Part shown: in pieces, positions 1-20,281 of the stretch
How positions within the stretch are numbered: position 1 is the stretch's first letter
How the letters are laid out: the number at the start of each line of letters is the position of its first letter
IMG/VR virus record: IMGVR_UViG_3300046369_000293
Coordinates: 1-21,403 of that record
Reading direction: 5' to 3' (one strand)
DNA from: a virus
DNA length: 21,403 nt
Notes under the pieces: model-generated
The model's database searches: none
What the model was told of the DNA's origin: nothing
What the model saw: only the letters and a program-made list of their open reading frames with translations
Position numbers and translations under genes: made by a program

Positions 1-46
1 CTAGAATGTTTTTAATGTCCTTTAGCATTTCTGTTGGGTTTTTCAT
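1..46 (-). CDS. 5' end of an unidentified gene, cut by the window edge
   Basis: Only the first 15 codons are visible (ATG at 44-46, beginning MKNPTEMLKDIKNIL), running off the left edge. The start is supported by a leader that matches those of the chaperone gene (ATG at 10899) and the protease gene (ATG at 2459): CGTTATAT exactly four bases before the ATG. A short amphipathic N-terminus of this kind could begin a scaffold or head-associated protein downstream of an XkdF-type protease, but that is a guess from position. The frame could also continue into the fragment at the right end of the window if the molecule were circular (see findings). Confidence 0.6.
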   Translation of the reverse strand, partial: MKNPTEMLKDIKNIL

Positions 47-50
47 ATTT

Positions 51-83
51 ATATAACGATTAATAATTAGTATTTTGCATTTT
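51..83 (-). promoter_or_regulatory. Bipartite late-promoter candidate (copy 3)
   Basis: On the minus strand this reads AAAATGCAAA (74-83), 15 bp, CGTTATAT (51-58), then four bases and the ATG at 46. The same two boxes with the same 15-bp and 4-bp spacing lie before the gene starting at 2459. It fills one of the few intergenic gaps (about 36 bases) in the late block. A role as promoter is inferred; a translation element is the alternative. Confidence 0.5.
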
Positions 84-232
84 CAGTCTGTTCCGTATAT
101 CTTACCTATGCCTTGAGACCATAAAGACCCATCACAACATTTTCTTGAATAAGTATTAGTATCCTTGCAAAGGCAACCTCTTGCGCTGCTCTTAGGACTT
201 GTTTTACTAGGAGTTTTCCACCATCTACGCAT
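83..232 (-). CDS. Small cysteine-rich phage protein (49 aa)
   Basis: Function unknown. The 49-residue product has a basic, Trp-containing N-terminus followed by a Cys-rich motif, GCLCKDTNTYSRKCCDG, and then SLWSQGIG. The paired Cys-x-Cys and Cys-Cys could bind a metal or form disulfides. From memory, short proteins with this CLC...CCDG...QGIG pattern recur in structural regions of Bacteroidetes phages, so I take it as real despite its size. A longer frame begins at 286 but would overlap the upstream gene by 62 bases. The ATG at 230-232 gives an 8-base overlap with the upstream TAG, like other junctions here, so I chose it. Confidence 0.7.
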   Translation of the reverse strand: MRRWWKTPSKTSPKSSARGCLCKDTNTYSRKCCDGSLWSQGIGKIYGTD

Positions 233-848
233 AGTTCTGTGTTTTTTGTATAAAGTAAATAATATCCCAAACCTTTGAAGTACCACCTACCGAAGTTATT
301 TTAAATTCAACACCATCTGCAACAAAGTCAGCGTCTGTATAATATTGCATCACCATACTTTCTTGATGCTCTATATCATTTCCTTTAGGAAAAGCTAATG
401 TACCTGATACTCTTGCTATTTGACCTGATCCTACAAGATTGTATTCTAAGAATGTTTGGTTTGCATTAGGTGCTTGTGCTTTAAAGGCTATTGTAAATAA
501 ATAAGTGTCGTTTACGTTTTCTCCTAGTATCTTCTGTGTGCTAGAATCATAATAGTCAAATCCTGTGTGACTTCTTACAACATTGCCTGCATTATTAGGA
601 ACAGTCGTTAGTGTGTCTGCTGCTAAAGATAACTTGTTAGTACTAGTGTAAACTGTGTCATCATATCTTGCCCATCCTAATCCACTATAAGCACCACCTT
701 GAGGATAAATTTTTCTCCACTCTCCGTTCCAAACAGTATAGACACCTGTAGAAGTAGTTACGTAAGCACCCTCTTCTATTTTGTAGGCTTCTCTTATTTC
801 ATCAGAGTCTACATCTACCTGTACTTTGTATGAAGTGTTTTTAATCAT
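225..848 (-). CDS. Putative virion surface (head fibre or decoration) protein, 207 aa
   Basis: No enzyme motif is visible. The 207-aa sequence is rich in Gly, Thr, Ser, Asn and aromatic residues and looks all-beta, with segments such as GLGWARYDDTVYTS and VPNNAGNVV. The C-terminal half (about residues 95-200) looks like a compact beta-sandwich. Proteins of this kind near an XkdF-like protease in Bacteroidetes phages are usually taken to be head fibres, decoration proteins or minor structural proteins. It lies between the coiled-coil gene at 865-1290 and the Cys-rich gene, and ends in a TAG overlapping the next ATG. The assignment rests on composition and position only. A receptor-binding tail protein is a reasonable alternative. 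Confidence 0.6.
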   Translation of the reverse strand: MIKNTSYKVQVDVDSDEIREAYKIEEGAYVTTSTGVYTVWNGEWRKIYPQGGAYSGLGWARYDDTVYTSTNKLSLAADTLTTVPNNAGNVVRSHTGFDYYDSSTQKILGENVNDTYLFTIAFKAQAPNANQTFLEYNLVGSGQIARVSGTLAFPKGNDIEHQESMVMQYYTDADFVADGVEFKITSVGGTSKVWDIIYFIQKTQNYA

Positions 849-864
849 TTAGATTGTTGTGTTT

Positions 865-1290
865 TTATTTCACAAAGAATTTAACATCGCTAATAAATTT
901 AACAGCTTCTCTTACTAAGTCAATGTTTTCTTTTTTAGCTTGTAGCAATTTATTATACACATCTATTTGCTTAGGATTCATATCAAGTTCCTTAGCTGCT
1001 CTTTCAATGTCATTAATTGCTGTTTCATAGTAAGCTACATTAAATATAGCCGAACCATCTCTTAACGTATTTGTTTCGTTCATAAACTTTTTAGCTTCTG
1101 AATTTACATCTACAAGTTTTTTAATTAGAGATATAGCTTCTTTTTTTAATTTCTTTGCTCTTTGGTTTCCTTTTTCAATGTCCTTTAAAACATTCTTAGC
1201 TTCAATAGCTAACTCTACCTTTTCTAACTCTTTCTTATTGAGTTTCACCTCTGATAGCTTTGTAAAAATCTTTTGTAATTCAGGTTTCAT
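865..1290 (-). CDS. Coiled-coil protein of unknown function (141 aa)
   Basis: A Lys/Glu-rich, almost entirely helical protein with no membrane segment and no cysteine. Heptad-like patterning of Leu, Ile and Val is clear over roughly residues 1-75 and again from about 85 to 135, with a short non-helical stretch (LRDGSAIFNV) between them, suggesting two helical hairpins. It sits 11 bases downstream of the XkdF-type protease, where many phages carry a scaffold or core protein. The size and charged coiled coil fit a scaffold, but no family signature is recognised. The leader contains AT-rich sequence only (AAATAAATAAATATG) and no Shine-Dalgarno motif. Confidence 0.6.
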   Translation of the reverse strand: MKPELQKIFTKLSEVKLNKKELEKVELAIEAKNVLKDIEKGNQRAKKLKKEAISLIKKLVDVNSEAKKFMNETNTLRDGSAIFNVAYYETAINDIERAAKELDMNPKQIDVYNKLLQAKKENIDLVREAVKFISDVKFFVK

Positions 1291-1301
1291 ATTTATTTAT
1301 T

Positions 1302-2459
1302 TTAATTTATAGGTATACAATTAGGCACTAACTTGCCATTTTTTCTTTTCATTCCGTATTGCTCATATCCTGCTTGACAAGGCTTTTTTAAATTGTGTTG
1401 CTCGCAAGGCATAAACCATATCTTATCTTCAAATTCGTGTTCGTGATAACCATCACATCCTAAATTCTTTGCAGCTTCTAGTGCTTGTTCTTTAGTAGAG
1501 TAGGCTAGTCTGTCATCTATGATAGCAGTATTCTCATCAATCACTTGTGATCCTACATACATATCTAGCTTTTTAAGTTTGTTGATTGCCCACTCAACTC
1601 CTGAAGTGCCACCCCAAGCATCCCACATTAGTCCTCCACATCCTTCCGAGTAAGGTACATCTTTGTGTTGTTGGTGTCTTTTAAAGGATGCCATTCTAGC
1701 AATAGTATCTCTAGTGATTGGCTCTTTGTTAGCTAATTGGTTTGCTCTTTTTTTTCCTGTAGCTTCTCCACAAGAACCCCAACCATTCTTTTCTGCCCAT
1801 TCTAAGGCTCTTTTAGCGTTATTTGATGCTGAGTCAGGATAATCTGTATAAGATTCTAGTTCTTCCTTAAAAAGGTCTATTATTTGGTCTATCGTTTGTT
1901 TCGCATCTTGCTCTTCTTTTGACATTCCTACAGCATCTTTGGGTCTTTCCATTTTATCTGCAAAGTAACCCTCAATAGAAAAGCCTTTTACCTTACCTGT
2001 TTTTACAAACTTCTCCCAAACATCATCATTATTTACTTTTACAGTACCCATCCAAGTTCCGATAGGCACATCCATACCGTACTTTCTGCTCTTATCGTGC
2101 ACCTCATCCTCTACGATCCAAGACTCTACTAAGCTAAGTCCTGATAGTTCATACTGATGTTCTAGTGTTGAGTTGTTTTGATTGCCTTTCATTAAATACA
2201 TTTGAGAGGCTTTTAAGACAGTATCTTTAGAAAAGTATATGTAGTACTCATCTTCTCCTGATCTTCTATATATAGGCTTGTTAGGTATCAATAAAGCACC
2301 CATAAGAATCTTTTTCTCACCTGATACTTCAGCTAGTTTTATTTCTTCTGCTTTTAGTGCTACAAAGTCCTCTTCTATTGCAGGATTCTCTACTACGCTT
2401 ATAGCTTCGATTCCTACTGCATCTTGGTCTTCGTCTAGTATAAGTTCTACGATTCTCAT
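1302..2459 (-). CDS. XkdF-type prohead protease with C-terminal extension (385 aa)
   Basis: The N-terminal part (about residues 1-170) resembles the XkdF family of PBSX-like phages, taken to be prohead proteases that cleave scaffold and capsid precursors during head maturation. Visible hallmarks are the NPAIEEDFVAL segment near the start, MGALLIPN, a His at 101 (TLEHQ) and GFSIEGYF with Ser161 and Glu163, matching the expected His/Ser positions of the gp21-like fold. Residues about 205-300 form a separate Trp/Gly/Cys-containing module with a basic patch (FKRHQQHKD), and the C-terminus (about 330-385) holds a short Cys-containing domain ending in NGKLVPNCIPIN. Family assignment is fairly firm; catalysis is inferred. 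Its position downstream of the tape measure gene is unusual. Confidence 0.8.
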   Translation of the reverse strand: MRIVELILDEDQDAVGIEAISVVENPAIEEDFVALKAEEIKLAEVSGEKKILMGALLIPNKPIYRRSGEDEYYIYFSKDTVLKASQMYLMKGNQNNSTLEHQYELSGLSLVESWIVEDEVHDKSRKYGMDVPIGTWMGTVKVNNDDVWEKFVKTGKVKGFSIEGYFADKMERPKDAVGMSKEEQDAKQTIDQIIDLFKEELESYTDYPDSASNNAKRALEWAEKNGWGSCGEATGKKRANQLANKEPITRDTIARMASFKRHQQHKDVPYSEGCGGLMWDAWGGTSGVEWAINKLKKLDMYVGSQVIDENTAIIDDRLAYSTKEQALEAAKNLGCDGYHEHEFEDKIWFMPCEQHNLKKPCQAGYEQYGMKRKNGKLVPNCIPIN

Positions 2460-2463
2460 AATA

Positions 2464-2496
2464 ATATAACGCTTATTTTAAATTAATTTGCATTTT
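2464..2496 (-). promoter_or_regulatory. Bipartite late-promoter candidate (copy 2)
   Basis: Minus strand: AAAATGCAAA (2487-2496), 15 bp, CGTTATAT (2464-2471), four bases, then ATG at 2459. Spacing is identical to the site before the gene at 46. The upstream box overlaps the TAA stop of the tape measure gene. The likely role is initiation of head-gene transcription by a phage-specific sigma factor; this is inferred. Confidence 0.5.
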
Positions 2497-4150
2497 AAAT
2501 ACTAGCAGATTCTACTATGTTTCTATCTAACCCTTGTGCAGTTGTTACATCGTTGCTTACTACGTAGGCTCTTTGTGGTTTAGCTTGTTGTCCTGATATA
2601 GCATCTGCAAGTTGATTAGTACCTCCTACACCTACTACATTAAAGTCAGGTGCTTGTGCCTCTACTGTTGGTGCTTGTATCTGTGGTGTGCTTATACTTG
2701 CGCCTCCTCCTGTTGCTGCTGAAGCTGCTTTAGTTGCATTTACTGCTGATTTAACGCTAGAAATAATTCCTGCTGCTTGACCTGCAAAAGCAATTAACAA
2801 AGGAATGTTAGCAGGAAATCCTACTTTAGCTGTTGATGCTGCTCCTTTAGCTATATCAACTCCTGCTGCTGATGCTCTTAAAGATATTTCTGATAGTGTA
2901 GCTTTAGCTTGTTCTATTTGCTCTCTTAGTCTTATTCCTTGTTTAGCTATGAATAATGCTTTCCCAACTTTAGTTTCTTCTCCTGCTGCATTAATTGTAG
3001 CATCTAAAGTGTCATTTATTAATTCTTTTCTTTTCTCTGCATCTTCTTCAGCCTTTTTTAAATCTTCTTCTGCTTGGAATATTTTAGCATCTCTTAAATC
3101 TTGATCTCTTTCTTGTAATTCTCTTTCTAAAGAAATAGCGTTGATTTTTTGCTCTGATCTAAATCCTTCAATCTGTGCTAGTACTGCTTCTCTTTCATTT
3201 TGTGCTTCTAATAAAGCTATGTAGTTTTCTTGATTTTGGTTTTTATCATATTCTGCTTGCGCTGCTGCTATAGTTATGTCAACATTTTCAAGCATTAATT
3301 TTTGTTGTTCTTCTAATACTTCGCTTAGCCTTTCATTAGCTGCTATCCTTTCTTCAATAGACAATGTCTCATCATCTCTTATTTGTCTTTGCTGCTCAGC
3401 TTGTCTATCATACTTTTCTATTAAGCCTTGATTTATAACAGCAGCTACTTCTGCCTGTTTGTTTAATTCTACTGTACCTTTTGCAGCATCATAAGTAGAC
3501 TTAGCATAATCTTTAATACTATTTACTACAGAAGGAACTACCTCTGACACTTTATCGAAAGTATTGTTTACTCCTGTTACAACATCAAATAATTCTTTTC
3601 CTGCTTCTTTAGCACTTTCTGCTGCACCTGCAAAATCTCCTGCAAATACTTTAACTACAGCTTCTCCTAAAAATCCTAAAGCATCTAAGGCACTAGAGAC
3701 TCTTTCTATTACATTGTCTACAATAGCTTGACCAAAGTTTTTAAGAGACTGTACAGGGTTTTCAAATAGCCCTTTAAAGTAATCTATAACAGTTCCTACG
3801 TTTTGATCTAGGAATTTAAATAGATCATTAAAAGCTATACTTAGTGCTTCGGTTGCAGTTGTAAAAGTGTCTACTACTTTTTGATTAGAGCTAAAAGTTT
3901 CTCTTAGTAAGTCAAAGGCTTTGATCACTACTGTTGCACCTAACGCACCCTTAAAAATGTTTTGGATTCCTTTTAATACTTTTGTAGATTTCTTAGCTTG
4001 TTTCTCTACACCATCTAAACCTTTCTCTATTGTGCTTGTTGCTGTTTCTGAGTTACTTTTTACATCTTTTAAAATATCTGATACATCGTTTAAAGTAGCT
4101 TCAGTTCCTTTAGCGTCTACCTCTAACTCTATTTTGTATTGTTGTGCCAT
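2495..4150 (-). CDS. Tail tape measure protein (551 aa)
   Basis: This protein sets tail length and is threaded through the tail tube. The sequence is typical: an N-terminal beta-like start (MAQQYKIELEVDAKGTEAT), long helical coiled-coil stretches rich in Ala, Lys, Glu and Gln (about residues 20-75 and 230-385), Gly/Ala-rich hydrophobic segments (near 85-100, 160-185 and 445-480) and a low-complexity Ala/Thr/Pro C-terminus. By the usual rule of about 1.5 angstrom per residue, 551 aa would give a tail of roughly 80 nm. The start overlaps the 50-aa gene at 4129-4281. It lies downstream of the large baseplate/fibre gene, whereas tape measure genes normally precede baseplate genes. Confidence 0.85.
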   Translation of the reverse strand: MAQQYKIELEVDAKGTEATLNDVSDILKDVKSNSETATSTIEKGLDGVEKQAKKSTKVLKGIQNIFKGALGATVVIKAFDLLRETFSSNQKVVDTFTTATEALSIAFNDLFKFLDQNVGTVIDYFKGLFENPVQSLKNFGQAIVDNVIERVSSALDALGFLGEAVVKVFAGDFAGAAESAKEAGKELFDVVTGVNNTFDKVSEVVPSVVNSIKDYAKSTYDAAKGTVELNKQAEVAAVINQGLIEKYDRQAEQQRQIRDDETLSIEERIAANERLSEVLEEQQKLMLENVDITIAAAQAEYDKNQNQENYIALLEAQNEREAVLAQIEGFRSEQKINAISLERELQERDQDLRDAKIFQAEEDLKKAEEDAEKRKELINDTLDATINAAGEETKVGKALFIAKQGIRLREQIEQAKATLSEISLRASAAGVDIAKGAASTAKVGFPANIPLLIAFAGQAAGIISSVKSAVNATKAASAATGGGASISTPQIQAPTVEAQAPDFNVVGVGGTNQLADAISGQQAKPQRAYVVSNDVTTAQGLDRNIVESASI

Positions 4151-4281
4151 TTTATTTCTTTTTTAATCTGTTTAAATGCTCCCTTAAAACTATCAGGCAA
4201 AGCATACTTACCTTGTGCTATTCTTATATTTTCTGTGTCTCCTTTTGCTACGCTAAGTACTTCTAGTATATTCTCTAACAT
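4129..4281 (-). CDS. Small protein between baseplate and tape measure genes (50 aa)
   Basis: A complete 50-codon frame with ATG at 4279-4281, starting one base after the stop of the 1332-aa gene and ending at the TAG at 4129-4131, a 22-base overlap with the tape measure start. It begins MLENILEVLSVAKGD, has a central IRIAQGKYALPDSF and a lysine-rich C-terminus (KQIKKEIKWHNNTK). The tight packing on both sides, the ATG and the otherwise empty 132-base gap support a real gene. The function is unknown. By position it could be a small tail-assembly factor. Confidence 0.65.
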   Translation of the reverse strand: MLENILEVLSVAKGDTENIRIAQGKYALPDSFKGAFKQIKKEIKWHNNTK

Positions 4282-4282
4282 A

Positions 4283-7200
4283 TTAATTATTAAAATCTAT
4301 TCTAACAGCACTCAACAATGTAGAACTTGCTCTTGGGAAAACTCTAAATTGACCACTCAAATCTCCACCACCTTGTAAGTTGTTTGCTATCGTTACATCG
4401 TGTACCTGTGTACCCCCTGCGTCATTTGTTGATGGTGTTACATTTGTAGTTAATGTTGAGTTTGTTAATGTTACGTAGTAAGCACCATTTGAAACTACTT
4501 CAATTTGTAATACTACATTTTCAGGCACAACTACAGCACCAGTCACATTGTTCCAAGATGTTTGTGGACTTATTCTATATCTAAACGATACAGTTGTAGC
4601 AGGATCAGCAACTGGACTGCCTGAGTAACTAAGTGAAGCTGTTTTGTCACTAGCTTGTATTGATCCTGTCACTTCTATAACATAAGTAGAACTAGTGTGA
4701 GAATCTTTTACTACTGATACACCTGTGCCACCTGGACTTACTGTTGGTGTTGTAATACTTCCTGCTGTAAATTCATATCCTGAATTGGCTGTGTATGTAA
4801 GCAAGTATCTATATGTGTCTCCACTCTCACCTCTTGGTTTAAGAACTGAATTGTTTCCTTCAAAGTCAGCTTTAGAGGCTTCATAAGATGGGTCTTTGTA
4901 AACACTCAGACTTGCATTCTGTACTGTTGTAGGAATAGAAATATCAGTTTGATAAACATCTACATTTGTCGCTGAAACGTGAATATTATAAGTGTGATTG
5001 CCATCGTTAGAAGCACTAGGGAAATTACCTCCAACTGTGATGTTCATAACATCTCCTACTAAGACTTTATCTAAAGTGTATTGGCTAGATACGTTAGTAC
5101 CACTTTCAAAAAGCTGTATACTTGTAACTTGACTTTCTGATAGCCACTCGCCTTCATTATTAGTAAATAAGAACTCAAGAGCAGGGCTTATAGCATTGCC
5201 ACATTGACCTGTACTGTAAGATATTTGACCAGTTCCTAAACTTGCATTTATGTTTGATATTACAGGGTTTTGGAAAGATAATGTACCACCACTACAAGTA
5301 GCTGCACTTTGTGTTGTAAATGTTTGAATAGCACCATAGCTAGTGTCTACTGTATTGGTTGCATAAGCCCTGTAGGAATAAAACTGATTTGAGTTTAAGC
5401 CACTAATAGGAGCGTTATAGGATCCTGCTGAAGTGCCTACTACTGTTACATTAGAAATAGTATTAGATAAAGATGGTGTTCCTGACCCTGTTATATACAC
5501 AAATCCTTTTACTGTATAATTAGGATTACCTACATCGGTTACATTGCCTTCAAAAGTAACACTAGAAGTACCAACACTACTAGCTAGATTGGTTGTTACA
5601 GATGGAGCATATGTTGTTGGCGATGTTGCTGCTGTGGAAAATGTAAGAACGCTACCATATGCAGTTCCTTGAGTATTTATTGCAAATGCTCTATAAGAAT
5701 ACGAAGTGCTAGATGGCAACCCAGTTAATGCACCTGAAAAAGAACCTGAACTAGTTCCTGATACTGGCAAAGTAAGATTGCTTGAGTCAGGTGTACCTGA
5801 TCCTTGCATATAATAAAAACCTTTAGAACTATAATTTGGAACTCCTACGTTTGTAACATTTCCTTGTAAAATTGTAGAACTACTTGTAGGTGTTGAATTA
5901 CCTGACGTAATTACAGTAGCTAAACTTTGTGTTGCTGCTGTAGTAAAGGTTATTACATTCCCTGTAACTACTGTAGAAGAAGGTGTAATAGCATAAGCAA
6001 CAAAAGAATAAGTAGATGAAGCTGATAGTGAAGTAATATTTGTAGAATACGCATTTGTATCTGTTCCTGAAACTATTACGTTATTATCAGAAGCTGTAGG
6101 TGTGACACTACCTACTGCCCAATAGAATCCTCTAGTTGTATAGGCAGGGCTTCCTGCTGATGTTACTTGTCCATTTAAGGTAGCTGATGTTTGTTGTATA
6201 GGATTTGCATTAGATGTAACTACTGTAGGTAACACATCTGCAACAGGTGCTACATAAGGATTAACAAGGTTTAAAAGTTCTAAGTTGCTTTCTCCTGTTT
6301 CTAGGTTACTTTCAATGCTGTTAATTTTATATATCCTATCTAATATCTGCACCTTGTCTGCTAAAGAATAGTTTAGCAAGAAGCTGATAGGCAAATAGGC
6401 TTTTACTTTTGTAAGTCTTAGCTTAGCATTGAATATTTCTTCTATGTATGTTTTGTAGTAGTCTTCAAATAAAGTTCCTTCAAAAGTAGTATCTAATGAG
6501 TATTCGTTTACCTCTAAGTTAAAGTTTATGTTTGAGTCATCAACTCCTGAATTAATAGTAACACTATTGGAAGGTATAAAGTATGTAGTTATATTAGTGA
6601 AACTACCGATCAAGTTATTTAAAAATCTTATTTGTGTAGGTGTGCTACTAACAGGATAAAATAATAAAGGCTTGCCAAAATAAGGATCATTGTTATCATC
6701 TACAAACCATCCTACTTGTGCAGATGTTAAAGCATTTGTTGCTCCGTTTATTAGTCTTTCGTATTTAAGGTGTTCAAATGGTGCTTTTACGCTGTATATA
6801 TCACCTCCTGCATCAAAGTTATCATCTCCCTTATATTCTACTGTACCCCACTCTACATTATTAGCTTGTTGATGTTGCAAGGCTAGCTTAGTTCCTAGTC
6901 CTTCATAACCAAAATCCACTTCTTTGAATGGTAAGGCTACATTCACATCCTTACTGGTTACTTCTACGTATTGTGTTATATCTCTTATTTCTGTAGAACT
7001 TGAATAAAAGCTATCAAGTGTTTTTACAGTTATTGTATCACCCTCGTAAAAAGCAGTCAAATTAAACATCTTAAATAACCCTGTGAGAAAGTCTATTACT
7101 TTCATCTTAGGTATTTGCTCTGTGATAATAAAGTTTTGTGCTGTTGAGACTAACAGCCCTGATGTTTGGTTATATGTTTTGCTTTCGCCTGTAAGATTAT

Positions 7201-8281
7201 TTGATACTGCTAATGAGAATCCTGAGAAGTTTGTGTTACCTGCTGCGTATATAAAAATCTGATACCCTGTACTAGAGTTTGTAAGAAACCCTGTAAAATT
7301 ATAAGCACCTGTAGTAGTTACGTTTTCTTGTCTGTATATTTGACCATCCTTTTTTATTATTATAGAATAGTCGTTAGATGTTGTTTGAGTAGCAGTAAAT
7401 GTGTAAGACATTTGCACAGGACTTGCCATTCCAAAAACTTGAAAATTTGAACCATTACAAAATAAACCAGTAACATCTAAAGGAGGAGTGTCAGCAGGAA
7501 ATCCTTCTATTAAAGTTGTAACTAGTGCATCCTCATCAAAAGCACTTCCCTTTTTCCTATGAAGCCACATATATAGCTTGTAGTAAGGATCATTTGTAGA
7601 ATCAAAGAAATCTGTAGAGAATGTTATACCATAGGTTTCTTCTATTGCTTTGATAATTATATGCACAGGTATAGCATACTTTAACTCTTCATAATATACA
7701 CCATTACCAGTAGCAGCATTTAAGTTGCCTATTGCTGTTGTGGCAGTATCATAAAACAATCTTGTAGTATGTGAAATAAGAGGAGCAACTAATGCGTCTG
7801 TGTAGGTTACACTATCAACTGTTTTATCGTGTCCATATCTTAAACCATCTAGGACTTCTGCTGCGCTATATTCGTGGCTGAAGTTGTCTAGCCATTCTAA
7901 AGAACTCAATGTGTCTTCTCCTAATAAGTCTTTTAGATCAATAGTATTTCCAAAGAATGTGATCTTGTAAGTATGTGGCTTGCCGTTTTTAAGATTGACA
8001 CTATTTAGCTTGATCTTACCTTTTCTAAATTCTTTGTTGTTTAATTCTAATCTTGCTGTTGTTTTCTTTCTAGCATCGTAGCCATTGTCTATGTCGTAAT
8101 TGTAATAGTGCTTGAATATTTTATTGTTAGTCTTAGATGCAGGCAAATTAAAAGTCTTGCTAAAATCTGTAAAGACCTTAGATATATCTTTTACGTTCTG
8201 TATGGTCTGAGTAACAGTTACTGATTCATCTTTAAATAAATCAACTCTTTGACCCTCTATATACAACTGTAATACTTGCAT
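4283..8281 (-). CDS. Baseplate/tail-tip protein with FN3-like repeats (1332 aa)
   Basis: This is the largest protein of the window, probably a tail-tip or baseplate protein that also carries adhesive domains. Residues 1 to about 680 form a mixed alpha/beta module beginning MQVLQLYIEGQRVDLFKDES, with FTDFSKTFNLPASKTNN near the start, of a type common in Bacteroidetes siphophages. Residues about 683-990 are three tandem FN3/Ig-like repeats of about 100-106 aa, each with a TSATLNG-like strand, a G-x-P-x-Y-x-x-x-GF-x-Y segment and a YSYRAYA-like strand. Residues 990-1332 are a Ser/Thr/Gly-rich beta domain, probably the distal tip. No hydrolase motif is seen. The role is inferred from size, repeats and neighbours. 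Confidence 0.75.
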   Translation of the reverse strand: MQVLQLYIEGQRVDLFKDESVTVTQTIQNVKDISKVFTDFSKTFNLPASKTNNKIFKHYYNYDIDNGYDARKKTTARLELNNKEFRKGKIKLNSVNLKNGKPHTYKITFFGNTIDLKDLLGEDTLSSLEWLDNFSHEYSAAEVLDGLRYGHDKTVDSVTYTDALVAPLISHTTRLFYDTATTAIGNLNAATGNGVYYEELKYAIPVHIIIKAIEETYGITFSTDFFDSTNDPYYKLYMWLHRKKGSAFDEDALVTTLIEGFPADTPPLDVTGLFCNGSNFQVFGMASPVQMSYTFTATQTTSNDYSIIIKKDGQIYRQENVTTTGAYNFTGFLTNSSTGYQIFIYAAGNTNFSGFSLAVSNNLTGESKTYNQTSGLLVSTAQNFIITEQIPKMKVIDFLTGLFKMFNLTAFYEGDTITVKTLDSFYSSSTEIRDITQYVEVTSKDVNVALPFKEVDFGYEGLGTKLALQHQQANNVEWGTVEYKGDDNFDAGGDIYSVKAPFEHLKYERLINGATNALTSAQVGWFVDDNNDPYFGKPLLFYPVSSTPTQIRFLNNLIGSFTNITTYFIPSNSVTINSGVDDSNINFNLEVNEYSLDTTFEGTLFEDYYKTYIEEIFNAKLRLTKVKAYLPISFLLNYSLADKVQILDRIYKINSIESNLETGESNLELLNLVNPYVAPVADVLPTVVTSNANPIQQTSATLNGQVTSAGSPAYTTRGFYWAVGSVTPTASDNNVIVSGTDTNAYSTNITSLSASSTYSFVAYAITPSSTVVTGNVITFTTAATQSLATVITSGNSTPTSSSTILQGNVTNVGVPNYSSKGFYYMQGSGTPDSSNLTLPVSGTSSGSFSGALTGLPSSTSYSYRAFAINTQGTAYGSVLTFSTAATSPTTYAPSVTTNLASSVGTSSVTFEGNVTDVGNPNYTVKGFVYITGSGTPSLSNTISNVTVVGTSAGSYNAPISGLNSNQFYSYRAYATNTVDTSYGAIQTFTTQSAATCSGGTLSFQNPVISNINASLGTGQISYSTGQCGNAISPALEFLFTNNEGEWLSESQVTSIQLFESGTNVSSQYTLDKVLVGDVMNITVGGNFPSASNDGNHTYNIHVSATNVDVYQTDISIPTTVQNASLSVYKDPSYEASKADFEGNNSVLKPRGESGDTYRYLLTYTANSGYEFTAGSITTPTVSPGGTGVSVVKDSHTSSTYVIEVTGSIQASDKTASLSYSGSPVADPATTVSFRYRISPQTSWNNVTGAVVVPENVVLQIEVVSNGAYYVTLTNSTLTTNVTPSTNDAGGTQVHDVTIANNLQGGGDLSGQFRVFPRASSTLLSAVRIDFNN
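5310..6232 (-). repeat. Three tandem FN3-like repeats inside the 1332-aa gene
   Basis: Three coding repeats of about 300-318 bases: roughly 5931-6232, 5613-5930 and 5310-5612. They encode homologous beta-sandwich units that share a GxVTxxGxPxYxxxGFxY core and end in a FTT or FST strand. The units have diverged (about 40% identical by eye), so they are old duplications and not a recent expansion. Confidence 0.75.
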
Positions 8282-9196
8282 CTATCTTAAATCATTAATC
8301 ACGTTAAAGGCATACTGTACATTTATTGTGTAGTTTACTAGCCTGTCGTTTACGCTTGTTTTATATGTTAGCTGTGTTGTAGTAATATCTACAGGGATAA
8401 CATCACTTCCTATTGTTGCCCATACTTGTTCTGACAATAGCATTTCCTCAAAAGAAGCATTTAAAGCCTCTGATACGAATCCTGTGTTCATAGTTAGGCT
8501 AGTTGTACCCTGAGTATTTAAAACCCTCTTAGAATGCGTATTGATGTCGTATGTGCCCGTACTAGATACTAGCGATCTCTTATAAGTTTCTTTTGTAGTG
8601 TTGACGCTCTCTACTGACTTCTTAAAAAAGTACATATCTTGTAATGCTCCAAACTTATTTACAAAGGTCATTTTAATTGGTGTGTACTTAGGTTCGCAAA
8701 CTCTTTTTATTGTTACTGTTTGACCACCTGCAAAAACACTTGTAGAGGCAGTTCCAAATAAATCATATACAATACCATTAGAACTTTCTTCTGCTACTTG
8801 CCCTGTTGTATTCTCAGGAACATATATTACAGTATTAGATTGCAATAAACTGTTAGAAGTTACTGTAGGACTTGCACCATCCATAAACTCACCATAACCA
8901 TCGAAGCCTGTATGTGTGAAGTTTACATCTGATCCTACTTGAGCATCGCTAGTGTCGTAAAACTTAATAGTACCTGTGATATTTATTACCTGTGATGTAT
9001 ATGTGCCGTCAAAAGTTATGTCTATATAGTCTCTTGCTAGTTCGCTTATCTCAAACAATGCTCCGTCAGAACTATCTACATCTTTTGTGATAGTATAATG
9101 TTGCGTGCCTTCAACACTTAAATCTAATGTAGCATAAGAACTACCTGCTTCGGTGTTGTAAATGTAGTAAGGACTTCTAAGTAATATATTTGCCAT
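8282..9196 (-). CDS. Tail structural protein (304 aa), possibly tube or distal tail
   Basis: A beta-rich protein starting MANILLRSPYYIYNTEAGSS. The N-terminal half (about 1-150) looks like a beta-sandwich with many Thr, Ser, Asp and Gly residues. The C-terminal half has a recognisable block, TFVNKFGALQDMYFFKKS (about residues 177-194), and LLSEQVWATIGSDVIPVDI near residue 255. Similar proteins occur in Bacteroidetes phages directly before the large baseplate protein. The start and the stop of the upstream gp10-like gene share one base (TAATG), and the 1332-aa gene follows immediately, so the three are probably translated as a coupled set. No other candidate for the major tail tube protein is present, so it may fill that role; a distal tail protein is the alternative. 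Confidence 0.65.
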   Translation of the reverse strand: MANILLRSPYYIYNTEAGSSYATLDLSVEGTQHYTITKDVDSSDGALFEISELARDYIDITFDGTYTSQVINITGTIKFYDTSDAQVGSDVNFTHTGFDGYGEFMDGASPTVTSNSLLQSNTVIYVPENTTGQVAEESSNGIVYDLFGTASTSVFAGGQTVTIKRVCEPKYTPIKMTFVNKFGALQDMYFFKKSVESVNTTKETYKRSLVSSTGTYDINTHSKRVLNTQGTTSLTMNTGFVSEALNASFEEMLLSEQVWATIGSDVIPVDITTTQLTYKTSVNDRLVNYTINVQYAFNVINDLR

Positions 9197-9699
9197 TATG
9201 TTGTAAAATCTAATAAATCGTCTATGTCTAAATTGAAGCTGTCTATAAGATCAGCAGGTAAATTATCAAAGGCTTTTTCGAAAGGTTTAGTAAAAAACAG
9301 GCTAGGCTTAATTCCTTTTTCTTTGATTGATCTTGCTAAAATAAATCCTATGCTTTTGTAGTTACCTTTCTTGTATCTTCCTTTCTCATCTCTTAGTCTA
9401 ATGTTTCTAGCTTTTGCCCACTTAGCTAATGCTTCAGAAGGTGGCTGCTTGTTAGAATAGCTAAAGATTGTATTGTACTTTTTTTTAGTTCCTGATACTC
9501 CCTGATCAACATACTGACCATAAGGCAACATATAAAACTCTAATCCAAAACTATTAGGACTTACTTTTAAATCATATCCTAGAGAACCATATAAATCACT
9601 AGATACATTTTTGCCTTGCTTAGTAAGATTAGTCCTAGCCTGTTGTATTACATACTTAGCAAACCTATTTAATTCCTCTTTTGTTTTGTCAAAACTCAT
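9196..9699 (-). CDS. HK97 gp10-like neck/tail protein (167 aa)
   Basis: It resembles the HK97 gp10 family of head-tail connection proteins. The pattern is an N-terminal helix (MSFDKTKEELNRFAKYVIQQAR), beta strands, then YGQYVDQGVSG (about residues 63-73), a hydrophilic loop with PPSEALAKWAKARNI, and a C-terminal FTKPFEKAFDNLPADLIDSF helix. This family mediates neck completion or head-tail joining. It is linked by TAATG overlaps to the genes on both sides, consistent with a neck/tail operon. I am fairly confident of the family and less so of the precise role, since similar short proteins can act in tail completion. Confidence 0.7.
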   Translation of the reverse strand: MSFDKTKEELNRFAKYVIQQARTNLTKQGKNVSSDLYGSLGYDLKVSPNSFGLEFYMLPYGQYVDQGVSGTKKKYNTIFSYSNKQPPSEALAKWAKARNIRLRDEKGRYKKGNYKSIGFILARSIKEKGIKPSLFFTKPFEKAFDNLPADLIDSFNLDIDDLLDFTT

Positions 9700-10166
9700 T
9701 AGCAGACTTCTTGATCGTTCTTAATCATTATATCAAATGTTGCTGCCCATCCTGCTAGCAAGTTTTCAAATCTATCTGTGAAAGGCTCAAAGGATACATC
9801 TCCTATGATCTGATAGCCCTCTCTGTACAAGCTACCTATTCTAATCTTTTGCAGTAAGTTGTTTAGTACTCTGAATTGTGCGTTAAGAATATCTTGCTCG
9901 TTCGTGTTGCCTCTAAATCTGTTTGTAGTAGGTTTCTTTTCTACATTAACAATATCCATTCCTAAAAGGCTAACATTGAAAGTAAGTGTTTGCTCTCCTG
10001 ATGTAACAGAGTTTACTATAAGGTGTGCTAGTGGAAATATAGTTTGCTTGTTTAAATCTACATCAGAGATATCTCCATAGGTAACTGCATTTACATTGAT
10101 GTCCTCTATAAGAAGATTCTCTATTAGGTCTGTTACTACATAAAAACCTCTTGCTGCTATATTCAT
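9699..10166 (-). CDS. Tail terminator/completion-like protein (155 aa)
   Basis: A 155-aa alpha/beta protein starting MNIAARGFYVVTDLIENLLIE, with a helix near 90-108 (NAQFRVLNNLLQKIRIG) and beta strands around it, ending FDIMIKNDQEVC. Size, fold pattern and location next to a gp10-like protein match tail terminator or tail completion proteins, which cap the tail tube and join it to the head. Its ATG overlaps the TGA that ends the chaperone frameshift product (ATGA at 10163-10166), so translation of the fused product leads straight into this gene. Moderate confidence in function. Confidence 0.6.
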   Translation of the reverse strand: MNIAARGFYVVTDLIENLLIEDINVNAVTYGDISDVDLNKQTIFPLAHLIVNSVTSGEQTLTFNVSLLGMDIVNVEKKPTTNRFRGNTNEQDILNAQFRVLNNLLQKIRIGSLYREGYQIIGDVSFEPFTDRFENLLAGWAATFDIMIKNDQEVC

Positions 10167-10899
10167 TTAAACTTACTTTTAATTTGTTTTGATTCTATGT
10201 CTGTTTTCTCTTTCATAAAGGATAATGCTAATAGTGCCTTATGTACATTTAGTTTAGTGATATCTTCAAATCTTGTAATATCTCCTTGAGCGAGTGCGTG
10301 AACTGACGAGTACCAACCCCACTTTGCTCCAAATTGAGAAACTGCTGTAAAGCTGTCTCCTCCTTGTGTTCCAAATAATTCATCATAGTCATTGACAAGT
10401 CGATCCCTAAATGATAAAAAAAAAGTACCGCACTTAGTGCTGCATCTAAAGGCATAGCTTTCATATAGCCTGTCTCTTTTGCTGTGTACTCTTCTATTGA
10501 GTATCTTTCTCCATATCGATTCTTGATCGGTCTATATAGAACTCCCATTGCTCTATCCATCAATTCCCAGTCTGTAAGATAGTTATCCAGGTCTATGTAT
10601 TCTCCAAAGGATATATCTTCTAGGTTAGGAATAAAACCATACTCTACACCATCCATAAAGAAAGTCTTTTTAAGTGCAGGCTTCTCATTAAACATATCTG
10701 ATAGAATAGCACATATACCATTTACATCTGCTAGCTTTAGCTTCATTACATCTGTAAGTTTCAACTCGCAGAATATCTCTATCATTTTGCTAGATAAGAA
10801 TCTCTCATCTGTGTTCTCGTTCTGTATTTTTAAGAACTTCTGATATTGCCCTAGTGTGATCTCCGATAACTTGTCAGGAACTGTAATATCTATCTTCAT
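10163..10899 (-). CDS. Tail assembly chaperone, -1 frameshift fusion (about 245 aa)
   Basis: A second frame, shifted by -1, is open downstream of a nine-T run at 10416-10424 and ends at the TGA at 10163-10165. It would add 84 residues after residue 161, beginning LSFRDRLVNDYDELFG, with GAKWGWYSSVHALAQGDIT in the middle and ending KQIKSKFK. The shifted segment looks protein-like (aromatic KWGWY core, amphipathic helices) and resembles downstream frames of tail chaperone loci in other Bacteroidetes phages, from memory. Lambda gpG/gpGT and many siphophages make a minor fusion in just this way. It also fills the otherwise unexplained gap 10167-10248 and couples by ATGA to the next gene. The frequency of slippage cannot be read from the sequence. 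Confidence 0.82.
10249..10899 (-). CDS. Tail assembly chaperone, short form (216 aa)
   Basis: The unshifted product of the chaperone locus, analogous to lambda gpG. It is largely helical, with MKIDITVPDKLSEITLGQYQ at the start, a conserved-looking FIPNLEDISFGEYIDLDNYL (about 100-120) and a hydrophobic LDAALSAVLFFYHLG (about 151-165). Codons 159-161 (CTT TTT TTT) lie on a nine-T run at which ribosomes can slip by -1. The short form continues through a Glu/Gln-rich tail to the TAA at 10249-10251. Such chaperones bind the tape measure protein and recruit tail tube subunits. It is the first gene after a strong terminator, and CGTTATAT lies four bases before its ATG. Confidence 0.8.
   Translation of the reverse strand: MKIDITVPDKLSEITLGQYQKFLKIQNENTDERFLSSKMIEIFCELKLTDVMKLKLADVNGICAILSDMFNEKPALKKTFFMDGVEYGFIPNLEDISFGEYIDLDNYLTDWELMDRAMGVLYRPIKNRYGERYSIEEYTAKETGYMKAMPLDAALSAVLFFYHLGIDLSMTMMNYLEHKEETALQQFLNLEQSGVGTRQFTHSLKEILQDLKISLN
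10416..10424 (-). other. -1 ribosomal slippery site (nine T)
   Basis: On the coding strand the sequence is GTA CTT TTT TTT TAT in the zero frame, a homopolymer that lets both tRNAs re-pair after a -1 slip (T TTT TTT type). The shifted frame continues TTA TCA TTT AGG. It lies where the two chaperone frames overlap. Confidence 0.8.
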
Positions 10900-10903
10900 A
10901 TAT

Positions 10904-10911
10904 ATATAACG
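10904..10911 (-). promoter_or_regulatory. CGTTATAT box before the first late gene (copy 1)
   Basis: CGTTATAT on the minus strand, four bases before the ATG at 10899, the same spacing as at 2464-2471 and 51-58. The upstream AAAATGCAAA partner is not conserved here (only 5 of 10 positions match at the equivalent place, which overlaps the terminator T-tract region). Because a strong terminator ends about 37 bases upstream, a promoter is expected here. Confidence 0.45.
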
Positions 10912-10936
10912 TATTTTTCTTAATATTTTTAAAAAT

Positions 10937-10963
10937 AAAAAAAGGGCAACTAAAAAGCTACCC
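10937..10963 (-). terminator. Strong Rho-independent terminator
   Basis: On the minus strand GGGTAGCT-TTTT-AGTTGCCC forms an 8-bp stem (two G-T pairs) with a four-base loop, followed by seven T and a further T-rich stretch. It closes the small-gene unit 11533-10993 and separates it from the late tail operon. Confidence 0.88.
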
Positions 10964-10992
10964 TAATTTAAACAAAAACATCTAACTAAAAA

Positions 10993-11701: not shown

Positions 11702-11732
11702 CAAATATATAATTATTTATTTAATTAACAAA
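11702..11732 (-). promoter_or_regulatory. Bacteroidetes-type promoter
   Basis: Minus strand TTTG (11729-11732), 19 bp, TATATTTG (11702-11709), matching the Bacteroidetes consensus TTTG/TAnnTTTG in both boxes. It lies directly downstream of the large terminase gene and would start transcription near 11695, serving the three small genes down to the terminator at 10937-10963. Confidence 0.75.
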
Positions 11733-13610: not shown

Positions 13611-14078
13611 CTAGTGTTCTCCTCCATAACTCATATCTAAGCTAGATTCCTGTAATCTCTTCTCTTCTTCCTCTATCCATTTAGCATCTTGTATTAGCTT
13701 TTCCTCATACATATCTCTAACTTGATTACTAAGTTCTATTACGTCTTCGTCTAGCAAGTAGTCTACCTTGATCTTAATAAACTCTTTACGCATTCCTATC
13801 TTACCTTTCTTTTCGTTCATTAGGATTTCGTAGAGCCATCCTTCTAACTCAGAGTTGTAATGTATATAGATGTCAAAGTTTTTTAGTGAGTGTAGTATAG
13901 TAGCGTGGTTTCTATTCATTATCTTGGCAATGTGATAGGGTTTCCTTTTATGGTACTTGCACAGCAAGTGTATGTATAACGCTCTTGATTCTACTGTCTC
14001 TCTTCTTCTGTTTCTATCGTAAGGATCATATCCTGTTACTTTTCTTACTTCTTCTCTTAATTTCTTTTCTATTGTCAT
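13611..14078 (-). CDS. DnaA domain IV-like DNA-binding protein (155 aa)
   Basis: Residues about 28-68 match the C-terminal DNA-binding domain of bacterial DnaA: SRALYIHLLCKYHKRK, then a helix-turn-helix YHIAKIMN-RNHATILHSLKN that parallels the DnaA signature RDHTTVLHA. The AAA+ ATPase of DnaA is absent. The rest (about 70-155) is a charged helical tail. Phages carry such stand-alone domains as DNA-binding regulators or replication accessories; here it could bind phage or host origin-type sites. It lies two bases from the methyltransferase gene. Family assignment is good, function open. Confidence 0.75.
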   Translation of the reverse strand: MTIEKKLREEVRKVTGYDPYDRNRRRETVESRALYIHLLCKYHKRKPYHIAKIMNRNHATILHSLKNFDIYIHYNSELEGWLYEILMNEKKGKIGMRKEFIKIKVDYLLDEDVIELSNQVRDMYEEKLIQDAKWIEEEEKRLQESSLDMSYGGEH

Positions 14079-14079
14079 A

Positions 14080-14724
14080 TTAAAATATTTCTAATTGATT
14101 CTCATTTTGATTATTAATAACACCTAAGGCAGTTTGCAATATTGTTTTGCCTGCTTCATAGTCCACAAGATTTCTTGCCATTTTTAGTCTTGATTGATCA
14201 CCATTATATTTATTAAAATCAAAATCGTGATAAATTGATAATTCTTTTATAAGCATATTACTTAAATTTTTACCTCGACCCCTATCACTTAATTTATTTG
14301 GTAAATTAAAATTAGACCAATATAAATGTCTATCTCTTTTTTTTGCCAATATTAAAGGCTCATAATATGGAACAACATTTTCAACTACATACTTTCCCTT
14401 AAAATAATGTTGTAAAAATATTATTTCTTCATACAATTTCATATCAGGATATCTCGGTTTCCAAACATCTCTTGTTTTTTGACTTATATTTATTCTACTA
14501 TGACTTGGACAAGGTGGTGATGACCATATAAAATCAAATTCTTTATAATGATCGAGTAAATATTGATGTGCATCTGTTACTACCACTTTATCATTTGGAA
14601 ATCTTTCTTGATATAATTTAGCAGCTTCAGGGTCATATTCTACAGCTGTAACATCAACATCTGTTATCTCATCCCATTTATATCTATTACCCCCTAAACA
14701 AGCATATAAATTAAGAATTTTCAT
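14080..14724 (-). CDS. C5 cytosine-specific DNA methyltransferase (214 aa)
   Basis: A Dcm-type enzyme that would transfer a methyl group from S-adenosylmethionine to cytosine C5. Motif I is near the start (ILNLYACLGGNRYKW), an acidic SAM-ribose position follows (VEYDPEA, about 29-35), the catalytic PPC with Cys72 is in WSSPPCPSHS, and ENV (115-117) is motif VI. At 214 aa it is short: the target-recognition domain and motifs IX-X are not evident. It may methylate phage DNA to evade host restriction; no matching endonuclease is seen in the window. It sits next to a ParB-like gene, a pairing known from other phages. The reading frame seems intact. Confidence 0.82.
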   Translation of the reverse strand: MKILNLYACLGGNRYKWDEITDVDVTAVEYDPEAAKLYQERFPNDKVVVTDAHQYLLDHYKEFDFIWSSPPCPSHSRINISQKTRDVWKPRYPDMKLYEEIIFLQHYFKGKYVVENVVPYYEPLILAKKRDRHLYWSNFNLPNKLSDRGRGKNLSNMLIKELSIYHDFDFNKYNGDQSRLKMARNLVDYEAGKTILQTALGVINNQNENQLEIF

Positions 14725-16673: not shown

Positions 16674-16703
16674 CAAATATAAATAAAATATCTATACCTG
16701 CAA
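16674..16703 (-). promoter_or_regulatory. Bacteroidetes-type promoter
   Basis: Minus strand TTG (16701-16703), 19 bp, TATATTTG (16674-16681). Same -7 box and spacing as at 11702-11732. The -33 box lies two bases outside the stop codon of the upstream 46-aa gene. It would transcribe the exonuclease, ParB-like, methyltransferase, DnaA-like and terminase genes. Confidence 0.72.
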
Positions 16704-17447: not shown

Positions 17448-17595
17448 CTTTTCTGTTGATTTTAATGTTGTTGAGTGCTTCTTTTCTATCTTCACATCCA
17501 CAGTCTTCTATTCCTATCAAGCCTGTAACTTTTTCTACAAGCCATTTTATTCCTGTGTATTTAAATATTGTTTCTAGTAAGTCTCCTAATCTCAT
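17431..17595 (-). CDS. Small Cys-containing protein (54 aa)
   Basis: A complete frame, ATG at 17593-17595 overlapping the sigma-factor stop (ATGA), TAA at 17431-17433. It starts MRLGDLLETIFKYTGIKWLV, continues VEKVTGLIGIEDCGCEDRK (Cys32-x-Cys34) and ends in a basic tail. Short phage proteins of the form helix, then CxC, then a helix are common, from memory, in Bacteroidetes phages next to replication genes. The ATGA coupling and well-formed sequence support it; the function is unknown. Confidence 0.68.
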   Translation of the reverse strand: MRLGDLLETIFKYTGIKWLVEKVTGLIGIEDCGCEDRKEALNNIKINRKDGRRR

Positions 17596-18086
17596 AATAA
17601 TCTTTCTTTTAAAATTTGTTTTACTTTCTTATAAGTGTTATATAAAGAGTAATAGCTTATTCCTGTGTTCCTAGATAACTCCGACACACTCATCTCACCA
17701 TCTAAGAGTTCAAACACCTTTCTATCATACCAGTATAAATCCTCTAAGGTTTCCATTACATCTTTATGTATTTCATTATGTGTTTTGTCACCAATCATAT
17801 CCTGATCTGCTTGCATCTCTAACAACATAAATTCTGCTTCGTCTATATAATTCACTCTTTTTTCTTTTCTCTTGAGGTCTAAAAATAATGTTCTAAGTAT
17901 TTTGTATATGTAATAATAGTTTACTGTTTCATCGTATTTAATATCTAATCCTGATTCTAATAGTCCGTGAAGTTTTAAGTACATCTCTTGCACTAAGTCC
18001 TCAGCTGTGTCGCTATTGCAGCCAAAGGACTCTACGATCTCACACCATTGTTTATGCTTTTTATATGCCTGTATTAAAACATCCAT
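17592..18086 (-). CDS. Sigma-70 family (ECF-like) RNA polymerase sigma factor (164 aa)
   Basis: It would direct host RNA polymerase to phage promoters. Region 2 spans about residues 25-80, with DTAEDLVQEMYLKLH and YKILRTLFLDLKRKEKR (the core-binding and -10 recognising helices). Region 4 spans about 113-162, with LEDLYWYDRKVFELL, then a helix-turn-helix, MSVSELSRNTGISYYSLYNTYKKV, for -35 recognition. The length, about 165 aa, is that of small ECF sigma factors; no sigma region 1.1 or 3 is seen. It lies in the early/middle operon, fitting a switch to late genes. The CGTTATAT motif before three late genes is a candidate target. Confidence 0.78.
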   Translation of the reverse strand: MDVLIQAYKKHKQWCEIVESFGCNSDTAEDLVQEMYLKLHGLLESGLDIKYDETVNYYYIYKILRTLFLDLKRKEKRVNYIDEAEFMLLEMQADQDMIGDKTHNEIHKDVMETLEDLYWYDRKVFELLDGEMSVSELSRNTGISYYSLYNTYKKVKQILKERLL

Positions 18087-18271: not shown

Positions 18272-18375
18272 TTAAATAAGTTTTGGTCTGTAAAATAATC
18301 TAATATTATAGCAACTATTACTACTGCTGATGCTCCACCAACTAACCATATGATAAATTCTATAAACTGCATCAT
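18268..18375 (-). CDS. Tiny single-span membrane protein (35 aa)
   Basis: A complete 35-codon frame beginning ATG ATG (18373-18375, next ATG at 18370), overlapping the TGA of the ATPase gene as ATGA, and ending in TGA (18268-18270) overlapping the next ATG as ATGA. It has one transmembrane segment, IEFIIWLVGGASAVVIVAII (about residues 5-24), followed by DYFTDQNLFK. Double ATGA coupling makes a real gene likely. Function unknown. Confidence 0.68.
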   Translation of the reverse strand: MMQFIEFIIWLVGGASAVVIVAIILDYFTDQNLFK

Positions 18376-20251: not shown

Positions 20252-20281
20252 CAAATATAAATAAAAAAATAAATAAACAAA
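20252..20281 (-). promoter_or_regulatory. Bacteroidetes-type promoter
   Basis: Minus strand TTTG (20278-20281), 18 bp, TATATTTG (20252-20259). The -33 box overlaps the T-tract of the upstream terminator, so one short segment both ends one unit and starts the next. It would drive the 45-aa, coiled-coil, OB-fold-like and SSB-like genes. Confidence 0.75.

Follow-up and report, generated by a model that had tools for sequence, protein, structure and literature searches.

A probable late promoter abutting the start codon in an aquatic Bacteroidota phage, and its proposed reading by a phage-encoded ECF-like sigma factor

In the stretch of viral DNA considered here (the window, 21,403 nucleotides of IMG/VR record IMGVR_UViG_3300046369_000293), three minus-strand genes with ATG codons at 46, 2459 and 10899 are each preceded, at exactly 4 nt, by the sequence CGTTATAT, which raises the question of what such a sequence does so close to a start codon and what reads it. 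The first-pass annotation proposed a phage-specific late promoter, and the three boxes lie where it placed them (51-58, 2464-2471 and 10904-10911, minus strand), as do two exact copies of its distal element AAAATGCAAA, 15 nt further upstream of the boxes at gene 46 (74-83) and gene 2459 (2487-2496). Numbered as for sigmaH, which puts +1 at the A of the ATG, the box reads C-12 G-11 T-10 T-9 A-8 T-7 A-6 T-5, and the predicted +1 positions are 46, 2459 and 10899. The -35 regions of the first two promoters (72-83 and 2485-2496, minus strand) include the cores CAAAAT at 72-77 and CAAATT at 2485-2490. AAAATGCAAA is absent at 10899, which is explained by a degenerate core, AAAAAT (10925-10930, minus strand), at the same distance as in the other two; all three promoters of the window thus have a CAAAAT-type core at -31 to -26, weakest at 10899. 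The arrangement of a -35 core and, 15 nt from the distal box, a CGTT-type -10 at a fixed distance from the ATG is ECF-like, as had been suggested.

This placement is not expected by chance. The window contains four exact copies of CGTTATAT where 0.52 are expected, and three instances of CGTTATAT-N4-ATG against 0.007 expected and a maximum of one in 300 dinucleotide shuffles; the two-box pattern AATGCAA-N14..16-CGTTATA is found twice, and not at all in 100 shuffles. The fourth copy of CGTTATAT, at 18897-18904 (minus strand), is within the open reading frame 18372-19271 and is probably a chance occurrence.

At 46 is the start of an acidic scaffold-like gene (1-46, minus strand), truncated at the edge of the window; its product has 203 residues in G001, a near-identical record, where a gene for a 315-residue protein taken to be the major capsid protein comes next, and we infer the scaffold and capsid roles of the two. 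The gene at 1302-2459 (minus strand) encodes an XkdF-type (Peptidase_S78_2) head protease (Pfam PF14550, E=1.1e-15), and that at 10249-10899 (minus strand), the first of the late tail block, has a weak PHROG match to a tail protein. An intrinsic terminator (10943-10964, minus strand) separates the early block from this first late promoter, and a comparable hairpin and T run precedes the 10899-type gene in 35 of 45 relatives and the other two genes in none. The early block differs in having sigmaA-like TATATTTG boxes, at 20252-20259 (minus strand), 16674-16681 and 11702-11709, in agreement with the first-pass annotation, and the TAnnTTTG -7 box of Bacteroidota sigmaA is absent upstream of the three late genes.

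The first-pass annotation had named lack of the motif in relatives as a refutation, and the search gave the opposite result: across 45 related virus records these genes have a promoter at an unchanged distance from the ATG, with a fourth, outside the window, before a gene for a 139-residue protein that is followed by the portal gene. A scan with the exact motif pattern alone matched 21 of the 45 records, with no control matches; it missed the other 24 because their box differs, and a gene-by-gene comparison of upstream regions recovered their promoters. In the 23 genomes of the CG class, 98 of 171 boxes are followed by an open reading frame at a distance of 2-17 nt, 75 of them at exactly N4, compared with 2 of 114 in the reversed genomes, and the remaining box classes behave in the same way. 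About four genes per genome are marked, and the proposal of a late-gene-specific as well as phage-specific promoter is supported. When viral contigs were scanned with the motif alone, 83 of 137 matches shared one spacer length, mostly with an ATG at the expected distance. Among genome contigs a scan turned up two relatives that are convincing, each on a MAG contig (one in a Bacteroidia bin, the other in a Campylobacterales bin), the rest being weak matches, mostly to Streptomyces sigmas. The -35 core CAAAAT was derived from 78 promoters and its run of A is near-invariant, with A-29 in 78 and A-28 in 77 of them. Some relatives have the 10899-type promoter 16 nt from the ATG instead of 4 nt.

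The box is variable between phages (CGTTATAT, TATTGTAT, TTATATAT, TATTATAT, CTATATAT and CGATATAT) and consistent within a genome. In 78% of 58 genomes two different genes have the same triplet at -12 to -10, whereas permuting the genomes gives 28% (maximum 47%). Agreement within a genome together with difference between phages points to a reader encoded by the phage itself.

A candidate reader is present in the window. The gene at 17592-18086 (minus strand) encodes a 164-residue protein with a PHROG match to 'RNA polymerase sigma factor' (E=1.6e-6), and a sigma-like protein of this kind is encoded in all 45 relatives; L104 and L134 have two paralogues each. Its sequence is divergent: the Sigma70_r2 match (E=1e-4, 22.4 bits) is below the 24-bit cut-off, region 4 is not recognised in a Pfam search, and the best PDB sequence match has E=0.9. 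The AlphaFold2 model (pLDDT 85) has two helical domains joined by a low-confidence linker, and its best Foldseek matches are ECF sigma factors, the full-length ones being sigmaH, sigmaL, sigmaE and SigW (probability 1.00, with a TM-score that is low from the domain arrangement). The modelled protein has the layout of ECF (group 4) factors, with only sigma2 and sigma4 and a size within about 160-200 residues, and the prediction of an ECF-like sigma in the window is borne out at the level of the modelled fold.

The proposed link between the boxes and this sigma is supported by co-variation. When about 1,500 alignment columns from six phage proteins are ranked by their association with the box, sigma residue 70 comes first for base -11 and sigma residue 66 for base -10. 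In the window protein these are D70 (codon 17877-17879, minus strand) and T66 (17889-17891, minus strand), which align with N92 and N88 of Mycobacterium tuberculosis sigmaH; in the solved sigmaH open complex N92 contacts base -11 and N88 base -10 (PMC6411747). As judged from the alignments, no other sigma columns predict -10 and -11 better than T66 and D70, which would be equivalent in reading to N88 and N92. The association is not confined to these residues: common descent also links the box to adjacent sigma columns and to some columns of the scaffold, the gene 46 column maximum is 0.69 compared with 0.75 for sigma residue 70, and in a 57-genome subset one column of the 10899 protein exceeds residue 66 for -10 (0.55 versus 0.48). 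The sigma tree has few base changes, five for -11 and three for -10, and a tree-based test of independent pairs is uninformative because of this, with significance out of reach and no pair that disagrees. Asparagine at residue 70 is found with T-11 and also with G-11, and L099 and L100, both with D70, have no clear CGT box upstream of the late gene. Two sets of apparent exceptions were set aside: L111 and L126 (D70 with TTATATAT) have sigmas that resemble the second paralogue of L104 and L134, their primary sigma probably being off the contig, and G027 and L600 were caused by the motif register.

We consider it very probable that the phage-encoded ECF-like sigma, acting on host RNA polymerase, drives leaderless late transcripts from the CGTTATAT promoters. 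The best surviving alternative is that a host ECF sigma factor reads them, the phage having adapted to a host regulon. This is very unlikely, since the box varies among phages while agreeing inside each genome, it tracks the phage sigma at the two positions predicted to contact the bases concerned, that sigma is present in every relative fetched, and many classes (TATTGTAT, TTATATAT and TATTATAT) are without any CGT box. Slightly less probable still is that the box is the site of another phage transcription activator with host sigmaA holoenzyme initiating. Phage DNA-binding proteins commonly drive middle and late activation, and the window encodes other small putative DNA-binding proteins such as the DnaA-C-like HTH protein at 13611-14078, but the two boxes are spaced as in a promoter (TGCAAA-N15-CGTT) and keep a constant position with respect to the ATG, the TAnnTTTG box is absent at the late promoters, and within the six phage proteins compared co-variation points to the residues with which a sigma region 2 reads the -10. 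A translation or mRNA-processing signal in place of a promoter would suit a box that adjoins the ATG, with well-conserved A-4 and T-1, in a phylum where Shine-Dalgarno sequences are unused, but it is the least credible reading given that only about four genes per genome are marked, a distal partner box lies 15 nt upstream, the box at 10899 directly follows a terminator, and the box diverges in step with the sigma factor.

The position of the transcript start depends on the ATG being the true start codon. Codons 2-10 vary chiefly at third positions, and no other ATG is present within the first 15 codons in 295 of 296 orthologues of the 10899 gene; this codon-level conservation shows the ATG to be the true start. 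With the -10 box only 4 nt away, too close for an ordinary 5' UTR as had been noted, transcription should begin at the A of the ATG, and the late mRNAs are predicted to be leaderless.

Under the sigma-driven model, the early block, including the sigma gene, would be transcribed from host sigmaA (TAnnTTTG) promoters, with early transcription ending at the 10943-10964 terminator. Newly made phage sigma on host RNA polymerase would then open about four late promoters: one for the tail block at 10899, one for the head protease at 2459, one for the scaffold and major-capsid genes at 46, and one beyond the window for the 139-residue protein and portal genes. Region 4 would bind the CAAAAT core and region 2 would read -12, -11 and -10 through R73, D70 and T66, with the transcript starting at the A of the ATG. 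Co-variation and structural alignment together suggest direct recognition of the box, the assignment of R73 to -12 being the most tentative part.

If correct, this describes the late-gene switch of a widespread aquatic (marine) Bacteroidota phage group and offers a residue-level hypothesis for -10 base choice by an ECF-like sigma. We think it rather probable that sigma and promoter form self-contained pairs that diverge across this large group, two or three sigma residues setting the late-promoter sequence, and that late mRNAs, including that for the capsid, are leaderless. Strong late expression would then bypass the usual way in which the host starts translation from a 5' UTR, in a phylum that makes no use of Shine-Dalgarno sequences. 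There is a sharp prediction for this phylum, in which few mRNAs are leaderless: the plentiful structural transcripts should begin at AUG. Because the natural sigma/promoter pairs are many, they are a ready set for promoter-specificity tests and a source of orthogonal parts for gene expression in Bacteroidota, for which few tools exist.

We found no earlier description of this late promoter in the literature searched, and the closest known arrangement is that of phiEco32 and Salmonella phage 7-11, whose phage-encoded sigma uses TAATGTATA-type promoters according to the passages of the published account that bear on it (PMC4331800). In that system a lytic phage has a divergent sigma and phage-specific promoters before structural genes, with host promoters for early genes, and the layout proposed for the window matches it. 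However, the two are unrelated in promoter sequence, in host phylum and in genome type; the phiEco32 motif in that account is a single 9-bp element whereas the present promoter has two boxes; the TAATGTATA / TGATGT promoter core is not used, the boxes being CGTTATAT and lineage variants; and leaderless placement and residue-by-base co-variation do not appear in those phiEco32 passages. With M. tuberculosis sigmaH and sigmaL and E. coli sigmaE, the window sigma shares the two-domain fold and the G-11 T-10 T-9 core of the -10, although sequence similarity is very weak, T and D replace the two asparagines of sigmaH, the -35 is CAAAAT in place of their GGAAC, which is not present in the core of the 78 promoters, and no anti-sigma gene came to notice. 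Flavobacterium psychrophilum SM6, in the same bacterial phylum, also has CGT in the -10 region of a host ECF regulon, but those promoters serve host stress and T9SS genes, and leaderless mRNAs are only 5.5% (PMC9723704). Among named phages, searches for near DNA and with the sigma protein gave no matches, and a search with the protease led to a cultured relative, the Nonlabens (Persicivirga) phages P12024S and P12024L of the genus Inhavirus. P12024S differs in that its -10 boxes are CGTTAATA and CGTTACTA, a homologue of gene 46 is fused to the XkdF-type protease (P12024S_01), its promoters are more numerous, with none before the 10899 orthologue, and its sigma is only about 23% identical to that of the window. 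It nevertheless shares a sigma-70 region 2 protein (P12024S_33) in which the D residue is kept, and six CGTTANTA-N4-ATG promoters, with ATGs at 179, 3031, 5412, 23961, 25201 and 26802, and since this isolate has the same layout the idea can be tested.

The recognisable genes of the window (G000, 21,403 bases) lie on the minus strand, and the ATGs at 46, 2459 and 10899, which begin a scaffold-like gene (gene46), an XkdF-type protease gene and the first gene of the tail block, are each preceded by CGTTATAT at exactly 4 nt; AAAATGCAAA is located 15 nt upstream of this box at 46 and 2459. Both arrangements are exactly as claimed in the first-pass annotation. The CGTTATAT-N4-ATG configuration occurs three times against 0.007 expected from dinucleotide shuffles (maximum 1 in 300), and a fourth exact copy of the box (18897-18904) falls within a gene. 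The 78 distinct promoters of the CG class (phages with C-12 G-11 in the box, as in the window) have a -35 core of C-31 A-30 A-29 A-28 A-27 T-26, with A-29 present in 78/78 and A-28 in 77/78, and T-33 is common. The 10899 promoter contains AAAAAT at the core position, and is thus a promoter with a degenerate -35 rather than one without a -35.

The search for this motif in related phages that the first-pass annotation called for has been run, and the promoter recurs in relatives. Scanning 2.9 million viral contigs with the motif alone (AATGCAA-N14..16-CGTTATA) gave at least 137 sites; 83 of the matches listed have a spacer of 16, with the ATG mostly 5-9 nt past the pattern, and the matches listed mainly precede two gene families, the window's protease (starting M-R/K-I-V/I-E-L-I-L) and the gene at 46 (MK..EML). 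In the near-identical record G001, which prolongs the window leftwards, the gene46 product is acidic and 203 aa long, and the 315-aa product of the next gene is taken to be the major capsid protein. A fourth promoter in this record (ATGCAAAA with CGTTATAT-N4-ATG after it) lies ahead of a 139-aa gene, behind which comes a 593-aa portal-like gene; the scaffold, capsid and portal names are putative, and come from gene order and sequence character. The sigma, protease, gene46 and 10899 genes are all present in 45/45 fetched relatives, and 75 of the 98 gene-proximal boxes in 23 CG-class genomes are at exactly N4, with two ORF-proximal boxes in total in a reversed-genome control.

Many relatives have a different box at the same distance from the ATG, common to that phage's own genes, the variants being TATTGTAT with TAACAAA, TTATATAT, TATTATAT, CTATATAT, and CGATATAT. 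When the triplets at -12 to -10 ahead of two different genes are compared within each genome, with no motif model, they agree in 78% of 58 genomes, compared with an average of 28% and a maximum of 47% in permuted genomes, and an 8-nt spacer control shows nearly no concerted effect (3.45 vs 3.08 identities). Such concerted change is expected from a phage-specific trans-acting reader, which is most likely the sigma factor encoded at 17592-18086 (minus strand). We also note that in L601, L598, L604, L555, and L588, within the group with Q at sigma residue 70, CATTATAT replaces or mixes with TATTATAT, so that base -12 varies more freely than bases -11 and -10.

The 164-aa product of 17592-18086 matches the PHROG sigma family, with Pfam Sigma70_r2 just below cut-off. 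The best structural matches of its AlphaFold2 model (pLDDT 85) are ECF sigma factors in solved RNAP complexes, M. tuberculosis sigmaH (5zx2) and sigmaL (6dv9) among others, and their low TM-scores probably reflect the two-domain arrangement. Some phages (L104:6906-7461 and L134:7774-8329, also L111 and L126) encode a second, divergent paralogue beside the usual one. Judged by its region 2.4 (S/D), this paralogue would be expected to go with a CGT-type box, and the phage's own late box is different. Sigma relatives on a Bacteroidia MAG contig (L611) and a Campylobacterales MAG contig (L610) are probably co-binned phage DNA, and matches elsewhere in the genome-contig collection are weak only.

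When about 1,500 columns of the sigma, 10899 protein, protease, gene46, TerL, and tape measure proteins are ranked, the best column for base -11 is sigma residue 70 (normalised mutual information 0.75; top control 0.69, in gene46), and for base -10 it is sigma residue 66 (0.56; top control 0.47). Residue 70 (D in the window, codon 17877-17879) is D in 37 of 41 G-11 phages and N in the remaining four, and Q, R or S in 52/52 A-11 phages; the 27 T-11 phages carry N, A or, in one case, Q. Residue 66 (T in the window, codon 17889-17891) is G in 29/30 A-10 phages and T, S, N, H or A in 89/90 T-10 phages; the two misfits (G027 and L600) are register artefacts. Residue 73 tends to R in C-12 phages, with exceptions. 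Two further genomes (L099 and L100) have a sigma with H66/D70, yet show no clear CGT box ahead of the 10899-type gene, the start of which is uncertain.

In the sigmaH open complex the -11 pair is reported to be read by N92 (with I91) and T-10 by N88, whose position has been suggested to help set -10 specificity (PMC6411747). SigmaH W81, I85, N88, and N92 align with Y59, I63, T66, and D70 of the window sigma, an inferred register that was placed manually on the basis of conserved spacing. The strongest argument is that the unguided column ranking agrees with these previously known contacts. How far common ancestry contributes is shown by a 57-genome subset, in which one 10899-protein column ranks above residue 66 for base -10 (0.55 vs 0.48). 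Base -11 changes just five times and base -10 just three times on a sigma tree from which the recognition helix was left out, too few changes for any paired test to be significant; none of the pairs is discordant. The case of G019 is telling, as this genome falls inside the CG clade (moderate support, 81) and retains D70 along with CG, whereas its residue 66 is G and its box is CGATATAT.

With sigmaH numbering (G-11 T-10 T-9) the box spans C-12 to T-5, which puts the predicted +1 on the A of the ATG, so that leaderless transcripts are predicted. Sequence comparison shows that this ATG is the genuine start, because differences among close relatives in codons 2-10 favour third positions (2141/3341 in the protease and 716/1027 in the 10899 gene) and there are almost no further in-frame ATGs near the 10899-type start. 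If the box is the promoter, an ordinary 5' UTR is impossible on transcripts begun there; read-through transcripts could carry leaders. Some phages have the gene46 box at N7-8 and a few lineages have the 10899-gene box at N16, giving predicted leaders of roughly 3-4 nt and 12 nt. The N16 spacing is seen in G023, G028, G036, G037, L106, L159, L186, L466, L486, L487, L489, and L490, where the other late promoters, as far as the sequence covers them, are at 4 nt, the roughly 12-nt leader thus being predicted at one gene only. On the host side, surveys report that 5.5% of mRNAs are leaderless in F. psychrophilum (PMC9723704) and that 3.7% of 5' UTRs are shorter than 10 nt in B. thetaiotaomicron (PMC7366714).

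The early block, to which the sigma gene belongs, contains sigmaA-like TATATTTG boxes at 20259, 16681, and 11709, and a terminator (10943-10964) is positioned directly ahead of the first late promoter. A similar hairpin and T run precedes the 10899-type gene in 35/45 relatives and the other two genes in none. This layout suggests an order in which host sigmaA would read the early genes first and the phage sigma the late genes next. The window also encodes a small protein (13611-14078, minus strand) whose helix-turn-helix resembles that of DnaA domain IV (NRNHATILHSLK; the Pfam Bac_DnaA_C match is below cut-off), and a product (14080-14724, minus strand) that by eye looks like a C5 DNA methyltransferase, with an SSPPCPSHSR motif.

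The cultured Nonlabens phage P12024S (L452), a distant relative, is an isolate suited to testing this promoter system. Its P12024S_33 is annotated with sigma-70 region 2, and six genes, among them a protease-scaffold fusion and the gene ahead of portal, have CGTTAATA or CGTTACTA at a distance of exactly 4 nt upstream of their ATG, with an AAACAAA-type -35 visible in most of the six promoters. The P12024S sigma has D and N at the residue-70 and residue-66 positions respectively, in agreement with the rule for CGT. The fusion (179-1228) joins the XkdF-type protease and a gene46-like acidic scaffold domain in one protein, whereas in the window's group each of the two has its own gene and its own promoter. 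For phiEco32 and 7-11, sigmas encoded by the phage and serving dedicated late promoters have been described (PMC4331800), and the general kind of system is therefore not new. As far as our literature search shows, what is new is the family, the promoter, its near-zero distance to the ATG, and the co-divergence of sigma and promoter.
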